Positions 19,207 through 19,375 of a DNA stretch of 52,806 nt are shown one piece after another. The stretch covers positions 1 through 52,806 of the forward strand of contig DUZS01000026.1 in NCBI GenBank assembly GCA_013349405.1, written 5' to 3'. The position numbers and the translations under genes were made by a program. The notes beneath the pieces were generated by a model. The model saw nothing but the letters and a program-made list of their open reading frames with translations. It was not told the DNA's origin and made no database searches. The stretch is from Desulfuromonadales bacterium. GTDB taxonomy: Bacteria; Desulfobacterota; Desulfuromonadia; Geobacterales; Pseudopelobacteraceae. Numbering within the stretch: position 1 is the stretch's first letter; the number at the start of each line of letters is the position of its first letter.

Positions 19207-19262
19207 GTTACTCTCCTTTTGCTCACCAATCCGTGAGCCTGTGGGGGTGTGGTCGGGGCAAC

Positions 19263-19301
19263 AAAAAAAGGCGCCCCATTACGTTGAATGGAGGCGCCTT
19301 T
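19263..19301 (-). terminator. Intrinsic terminator in the nifH leader
   Basis: On the minus strand AAAGGCGCC (19293-19301) pairs with GGCGCCTTT (19267-19275), followed by a run of T to 19263. The internal sequence CCATT-CAACGT-AATGG can close a second, apical stem with a 6-base loop. It lies between the promoter (19359-19375) and the nifH ATG (19206), so readthrough is needed for nifHDK expression. This is the expected site for the ANTAR protein at 33075-33641. Confidence 0.85.
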
Positions 19302-19358
19302 GCCCGGGTACGTACATATGATTTTGAGTGATCTGTTTCGTGATGCTGATCTCTCTAA

Positions 19359-19375
19359 AGCATATGCCGTGCCAA
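19359..19375 (-). promoter_or_regulatory. Sigma-54 (-24/-12) promoter of nifHDK
   Basis: The minus strand reads TTGGCACGGCATATGCT, a near-perfect RpoN promoter with correct GG-N10-GC spacing. It gives a leader of about 140 bases to the nifH ATG. No clear NifA upstream site (TGT-N10-ACA) is seen in 19386-19495. Confidence 0.92.

Follow-up and report, generated by a model that had tools for sequence, protein, structure and literature searches.

A predicted single-hexaloop ANTAR antiterminator in the nifHDK leader of a Desulfuromonadales bacterium

Introduction

How does RNA polymerase reach nifHDK in a Desulfuromonadales bacterium, a relative of Geobacter, in which a strong intrinsic terminator lies between the promoter and nifH? 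We addressed this question in a stretch of 52,806 nucleotides (the window), which carries nif genes together with the gene of an ANTAR response regulator. In Geobacter sulfurreducens, Ueki and Lovley (2010, NAR 38:7485; cited in papers on ANTAR proteins and on Geomonas) reportedly described how GnfK/GnfR combines two-component activation with antitermination, which is said to act on the subset of nif genes that have termination signals in their promoters. The window resembles the GnfR paradigm in having a sigma-54-type promoter and then a terminator before nifH, nifB and nifEN. The gnfR gene is GSU2822 (PMC7962754), and the passages on GnfR that we consulted in the Geobacter literature make no mention of antitermination. 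In Pelobacter carbinolicus, ANTAR substrates were predicted in three nitrogenase transcriptional units with a two-hairpin model, whereas the leaders of the window have one hairpin (PMC3369931). The well-studied ANTAR antiterminators carry two hexaloops.

ANTAR antitermination of nif genes is already known; the system described here is a further member, and its single-hexaloop form is the variant. The portions of the literature that we searched yielded no report of single-hexaloop transcription antiterminators. We consider it highly probable that the nifHDK leader of the window is a transcription antiterminator of this single-hexaloop type, read by the ANTAR protein.

Results

A sigma-54 promoter and an intrinsic terminator precede nifHDK

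The nifHDK locus has the following features.

19374-19359, minus strand: sigma-54 (-24/-12) promoter of nifHDK, TGGCACGGCATATGCT, 1 mismatch to TGGCACGNNNNTTGCW
19306..19348, minus strand: leader stretch from the predicted start to the hexaloop hairpin; no first hexaloop (P1) and no stable structure found
19292..19305, minus strand: ANTAR-type hexaloop hairpin P2, GGGC[AAAGGC]GCCU, loop 19296-19301; proposed antiterminator
19301-19263, minus strand: intrinsic terminator of the nifHDK leader, AAAGGCGCCUCCAUUCAACGUAAUGGGGCGCCUUUUUUU, with U run; MFE -20.8 kcal/mol
19221..19238, minus strand: conserved hairpin GCUCAC[GGAUUG]GUGAGC, abutting the nifH Shine-Dalgarno on its 5′ side
18343..19206, minus strand: nifH (TIGR01287, 1.8e-141)
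16788..18377, minus strand: nifD, ORF as listed (TIGR01282, 1.2e-232, matching residues 67-529); the true start probably lies downstream of the listed one
15130..16626, minus strand: nifK (TIGR01286, 3.7e-199)

A promoter and terminator in this arrangement had been claimed in a first-pass annotation of the window, and both were confirmed at the coordinates it gave. The promoter is the best of 71 sigma-54 matches (at most 3 mismatches) found by scanning the window. This number is not above chance (shuffle mean 89), so the evidence for the promoter is its match quality, position and conservation, and the count carries none. Assuming the usual 12-nt spacing after the -12 element, transcription would start at about 19348, which would give nifH a leader of about 142 nt. 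The terminator is far more stable than dinucleotide shuffles of the same sequence (mean -7.83 kcal/mol in 200 shuffles, z -5.74, 0/200 as stable). A simple terminator scan of 14000-24000 also recovers it, as one of 8 terminator-like sites in that region, a number not in excess of the 10.1 expected.

The hairpin at 19221-19238 is a second conserved element of this leader. Of 46 unique nifH leader ends, 35 carry its motif, and its stem covaries (pair 4: UA 21, CG 12; pair 5: CG 20, GC 6); the remaining 11, some of them still hairpin-like, were excluded from these pair counts. The loop consensus, approximately RGAUKR, is unlike the ANTAR hexaloop. The GGA in this loop suggested a CsrA site, a reading that was dropped because about one third of the relatives carry AGA instead. 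Further, a GCCCC able to pair with the 3′ arm of the terminator lies downstream in 36 of 50 nifH leaders (one of the 50 being a duplicate); this pairing had no covariation support and was set aside.

The hexaloop hairpin and the terminator are mutually exclusive

The nifHDK leader carries an A1/G4 hexaloop hairpin at 19292-19305. The loop of this hairpin, P2, has six bases with A at the first and G at the fourth position, which is the loop recognized by ANTAR proteins (PMC3369931, PMC8164766, PMC7496416). The 5′ arm of the terminator starts at the A1 of the hexaloop, and the loop and 3′ arm of P2 lie inside the terminator; since they are shared, only one of the two structures can form. The P2 hairpin has a predicted energy of -4.4 kcal/mol and, taken as an isolated 14-nt sequence, is not more stable than its shuffles (z -0.72, 48/200 as good). 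Across 84 leaders of the window's genus, terminators have median energies of -20.3 (nifH), -22.5 (nifB) and -19.4 kcal/mol (nifEN), far below those of the hairpins (medians -4.4, -2.8 and -4.4 kcal/mol, respectively), so the unaided terminator should win.

Conservation of the P2 stem was assessed in 116 unique leaders, after three odd P2 calls had been removed. The presence of A1 and G4 in 116/116 is by construction, as the P2 detector required both. The fourth pair was not part of the GGC/GCC required by the search; it shows compensatory variation across relatives and is formed in 59/116 leaders versus 29.6 in shuffles (0/2000 as good). P2 stems reach four pairs only in these 59, and nifB-type stems are mostly 3 bp. 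The fifth pair is without covariation (34/116, shuffle mean 37.3).

P2, the candidate binding hairpin, sits at the base of the terminator; the first-pass annotation missed it and pointed to a secondary apical stem with a six-base loop as a possible protein-binding shape. The apical stem does exist, as CCAUU[CAACGU]AAUGG, but is not conserved. A 6-nt apical loop forms in the terminators of 20 of the 84 genus leaders, and none of these (0/20) has G4. The apical loop was rejected as a protein-binding site on both grounds.

The same design is repeated before nifB and nifEN

In the window, the arrangement of promoter, hexaloop and overlapping terminator recurs before nifB and before nifEN.

31787-31772, minus strand: sigma-54 promoter of nifB, TGGCACATTCTATGCT, 2 mismatches
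31754-31743, minus strand: hexaloop hairpin of the nifB leader, GGC[AACGAC]GCC, 7 nt past the predicted start
31748-31715, minus strand: intrinsic terminator of the nifB leader; fold of 31715-31763 z -2.32
30826..31695, minus strand: nifB (TIGR01290, 3.1e-100, 336 bits versus a cut-off of 343.65)
31973-32908, plus strand: draG, ADP-ribosyl-[dinitrogen reductase] hydrolase (TIGR02662, 4.9e-138)
1278-1263, minus strand: sigma-54 promoter of nifEN, TGGCACAGCACATGCT, 2 mismatches
1232-1219, minus strand: hexaloop hairpin of the nifEN leader, UGGC[AACGGC]GCCA (6.1e-5 with the model of relatives described below)
1228-1181, minus strand: intrinsic terminator of the nifEN leader, AACGGCG..CGCCGUUUUU; fold of 1177-1252 z -2.75
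3..1136, minus strand: 5′ part of nifEN, which runs past the window end (NF011047 NifEN, 3.8e-227)

In relatives, nifE and nifN seem to be fused into one gene, with open frames mostly of 920-1000 aa. The presence of draG, divergent from nifB, suggests post-translational control of NifH as well.

Hexaloop, terminator and promoter co-occur across relatives

We searched 58 genomes, 37 from the genus and family of the window (f1) and the others from three related families of the same order (f2, 4; f3, 8; f4, 9), and took 170 regions upstream of nifH, nifB and nifEN (169 distinct, the nifH of G053 having been entered twice). Left out were a nifH fragment in G002, a 63% nifH match in G006, second nifB-like copies, and NifE matches lacking the N-terminus in G027, G039 and G047. 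Some f2-f4 rows are doubtful, with promoters far upstream and leaders of up to 318 nt, and P2 of the G049 nifH leader is misplaced. P2, an overlapping terminator and a sigma-54 promoter were found together in 33/45 nifH, 31/34 nifB and 20/31 nifEN regions of f1; a sigma-54 promoter was assigned in all 33 of the 33 genus nifH leaders having hexaloop and terminator. Among the f1 misses, those of nifB are one empty region (G024) and two with a hexaloop and a poor terminator or U run, while those of nifEN are mostly without both hexaloop and terminator. All 12 nifH misses are second copies of the gene that have neither hexaloop nor terminator, and 11 also lack a sigma-54-like site. An upstream block with GGAGCA..GCUCA is, by eye, common to many of these 12. 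The genome of the window has a second nifH copy of its own (L240, on G000:C43), 94% identical and likewise without sigma-54 site, hexaloop and terminator.

Terminators were also scanned independently of the hexaloop. Among 144 regions with a sigma-54-like site, 118 had both elements, 12 neither, 8 the hexaloop only and 6 the terminator only; the leader counts are not independent, as leaders within a genus are related, and a Fisher p for this co-occurrence is optimistic for that reason. A pattern joining a sigma-54 site to a hexaloop gave 264 matches in the 58 genomes versus 33 for the reversed pattern, not all of the 264 being leaders (of the 6 in the genome of the window, for example, 3 are on other contigs).

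To train a covariance model (R2), we took 18 leaders of nifH and nifEN from relatives, with none from this genome and no nifB leader. Only R2 counts as evidence here because the three leaders of the window were themselves part of an earlier model, R1. Across the entire 3.43-Mb genome, R2 matched the nifH leader (E = 2.3e-11) and the nifEN leader (6.1e-5); the next match, at 0.15, lies inside draG (150 of 2411 first-look candidates scored). The nifB leader, a type absent from the training set, was not recovered. Applied to 80 named nifH loci, R2 matched 16/28 from Desulfuromonadia, a few of which come from genomes also represented in the training set, and 0/52 others. A looser test found hexaloop plus terminator in 24/28 Desulfuromonadia loci and 0/52 others, the latter showing the hexaloop alone in 1/52 and the terminator alone in 4/52. 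As a comparison of sequences, the 170 regions support ANTAR antitermination.

Probably one hexaloop rather than two in the genus of the window

Could the leaders of the window be dual-hexaloop antiterminators like that of eutP, with a degenerate P1 upstream of P2 that escaped detection? In f2-f4, a canonical P1, AC[NNNGNN]GU, is present in 15/38 leaders (f2 1/10, f3 10/14, f4 4/14, duplicates removed), for example as GGUAC[AACGAU]GUAUC before P2, and any hexaloop with G4 and at least three pairs is present in 23/38, with about 6 expected; the mean fold z of the stretch from start to P2 is -1.70 in f2, -1.39 in f3 and -1.10 in f4. The nifEN leader of the window itself has, by eye, an upstream hairpin-like UCUA[CAAAAGCA]UAGA, which, when closed to six, is without G at position 4. 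In contrast, a canonical P1 was found in 0/77 distinct f1 leaders, and relaxed G4 hexaloops were at shuffle level (at least three pairs, 2/77 versus 2.9 in shuffles; at least four pairs, 2/77 versus 1.1). Between start and P2, 49 f1 leaders are no more stably folded than their shuffles (mean z +0.11), and the same is true of 19292-19348 in the window (z +0.87). Furthermore, f1 nifB leaders have only 6-14 nt between P2 and a point two bases ahead of the predicted start, which leaves no room for a four-pair hairpin with a six-base loop plus a linker. A hidden P1 in the genus, sought with strict and relaxed definitions, by folding and against shuffles, was not found, and we consider a two-hexaloop leader in the window to be unlikely to a high degree.

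A canonical P1 is likewise missing from 23/38 leaders of f2-f4, including 7/7 nifEN leaders, so the single-loop type is not confined to the genus. As the rule for nifH and nifB, single-loop leaders appear to be limited to the genus of the window.

The ANTAR protein of the window and other readings of the leader

The single-hexaloop reading has the terminator attenuate nifHDK. Another reading takes the terminator hairpin as simply the end of an upstream molybdate transport operon, with nifH not attenuated. Indeed, modC (TIGR02142) lies upstream of nifH on the same strand and ends at 19496, and a terminator in the nifH leader would stop modC transcripts too. However, the nifH promoter lies upstream of the terminator, which is conserved alongside the hexaloop across genomes, and the same design stands before nifB, where draG is divergent and does not read in, so that the terminator of the nifB leader cannot serve draG. 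We find this explanation still less likely than a hidden P1.

A single-hexaloop antiterminator calls for a protein that reads the loop, and the following genes bear on this.

33075..33641, minus strand: ANTAR response regulator (GnfR-type), REC + ANTAR, start taken at ATG 33641
26287..28473, minus strand: HDOD + histidine-kinase-type ATPase protein, among the nif genes (Pfam)

Both domains of the ANTAR protein were identified with Pfam (REC 9.4e-25, ANTAR 8.5e-18). Its Asp69 (protein P0001) aligns with Asp54 of EutV, the phospho-acceptor. The closest solved structures are 1s8n (Rv1626; 4.6e-45) and EutV 6wsh (5.9e-34). Of the EutV residues that contact the loop (PMC8934654), R142, K143, K147, K149, E160, Y164, M172 and R175 are identical in the protein of the window, and R168, N173 and R177 are replaced by Q, D and T or S, respectively. 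The gene is the sole ANTAR match in the genome (3.43 Mb, 96% complete). Similarly, exactly one ANTAR protein was found in 52 of the 54 genomes having any, out of the 58 searched with that of the window included. In G047 and G054, which belong to a single f4 genus, hexaloop leaders are present, whereas neither an ANTAR protein nor a close NifH was found. As the ANTAR gene and nifH adjoin in the f4 genomes G039, G042 and G052, a missing or lost segment in these two is possible, if unproven. A sigma-54-like site at 28522-28537 precedes the gene of the HDOD/histidine-kinase-type ATPase protein, which could possibly be a signalling partner of the ANTAR protein.

That the leader is instead some other RNA switch or protein target, read by a metabolite or another RNA-binding protein and ANTAR-like by coincidence, is the least likely reading we considered, given that an A1/G4 hexaloop overlapping a terminator is the ANTAR signature, that the ANTAR gene shares the window with the nif genes and retains most loop-contact residues, and that no Rfam family of any kind reached its gathering score in the window, even though ANTAR binding of the leader is a prediction, another factor may act on the nifH leader at 19221-19238, and G047 and G054 combine hexaloop leaders with no ANTAR gene found.

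The position that stacks on G4 is Tyr in 36/37 ANTAR sequences of the genus (f1) and Phe in 19/19 of f2-f4. The lone non-Tyr f1 sequence is a third copy, 50% identical, from a genome with 7% contamination; with this copy omitted, four columns of the coiled coil and ANTAR domain alone fully separate f1 from f2-f4. In EutV, the hydroxyl of the Tyr at this position touches the RNA backbone. On this basis the Phe-to-Tyr difference is a candidate for a change that compensates for the single hexaloop. As proof of adaptation it was rejected and it is only a lead, because it is one evolutionary contrast and because EutV has Tyr with two loops; it is also undercut by the Phe genomes that have leaders without canonical P1 (23/38, f2-f4).

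Discussion

Of the features that mark ANTAR targets, the nifHDK leader has the A1/G4 hexaloop and its exclusion of the terminator, and an ANTAR protein is encoded in the genome; the second hexaloop, P1, was not found. The first-pass annotation had read the locus as an antitermination design served by the ANTAR protein. This is supported, as far as sequence comparison goes, by the terminator-excluding hexaloop, its repeats before nifB and nifEN, the co-occurrence across relatives and the single ANTAR protein; with the apical loop set aside, that interpretation is partly supported overall. We predict that sigma-54 polymerase would start near 19348 and that the GGGC[AAAGGC]GCCU hairpin would be the first stable element to emerge. 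When active, presumably as a phosphorylated dimer formed under nitrogen limitation, the ANTAR regulator (33075-33641) would grip the loop, with G4 stacking on the Tyr aligned with EutV Tyr164. Thus bound, the hairpin would stay closed and its loop and 3′ arm would be withheld from the terminator, and polymerase could then read into nifHDK. Without the active regulator, the far more stable terminator would be expected to win. Control of nifB and nifEN may be alike.

The predicted system resembles EutV/eutP of Enterococcus faecalis in having a REC-ANTAR protein and an A1/G4 hexaloop P2 that is exclusive with the terminator (PMC3369931, PMC8934654), and the protein of the window has the same G4-contact residues as EutV (PMC8934654). 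Where relatives of the window have a canonical P1, its AC/GU closing pairs are those of eutP P1; exchanging these pairs in eutP disrupted induction (PMC3369931). Whereas eutP depends on its two hairpins and on an appropriate linker (PMC3369931), no P1 was found in the leaders of the window. NasR/nasF of Klebsiella oxytoca is similar in its A1, G4 and C:G closing pair and in its link to nitrogen metabolism, and differs from the window system in that NasR is a one-component nitrate sensor with a two-hairpin leader (PMC7496416).

Is one loop enough? In the EutV system, deletion of P1 or an altered linker impaired induction in vivo (PMC3369931) and a longer linker abolished antitermination in vitro (PMC8934654), and NasR bound a single hairpin about 12-fold more weakly than two, at ~12 µM versus ~1 µM (PMC7496416); these effects imply that one loop might not suffice. 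The EutV structural work redefined the binding unit as one hexaloop, expected single sites in settings free of the time limit that a transcribing polymerase imposes, and noted mycobacterial targets that in some cases lack the dual motif (PMC8934654). In the leaders of the window the terminator follows immediately after P2, so the time limit of a transcribing polymerase applies. We lean, by a small degree, towards the view that the genus as a whole now does without the first, recruiting hexaloop and carries out timed antitermination on a single hexaloop, which in nifB has a stem of mostly 3 bp within ~10 nt of the predicted 5′ end. If true, genus-wide single-hexaloop antitermination would be at odds with the model that the time limit makes the first loop necessary.

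The relatives amount to a natural experiment, as sister families often have dual hexaloops before nifH and nifB, the genus of the window has single ones, and the genomes mostly encode one ANTAR protein. With matched pairs of leader and protein at hand, the need for two hexaloops is directly testable. The single-hexaloop leader suggests that these bacteria may turn their nif genes on and off with a very small switch.
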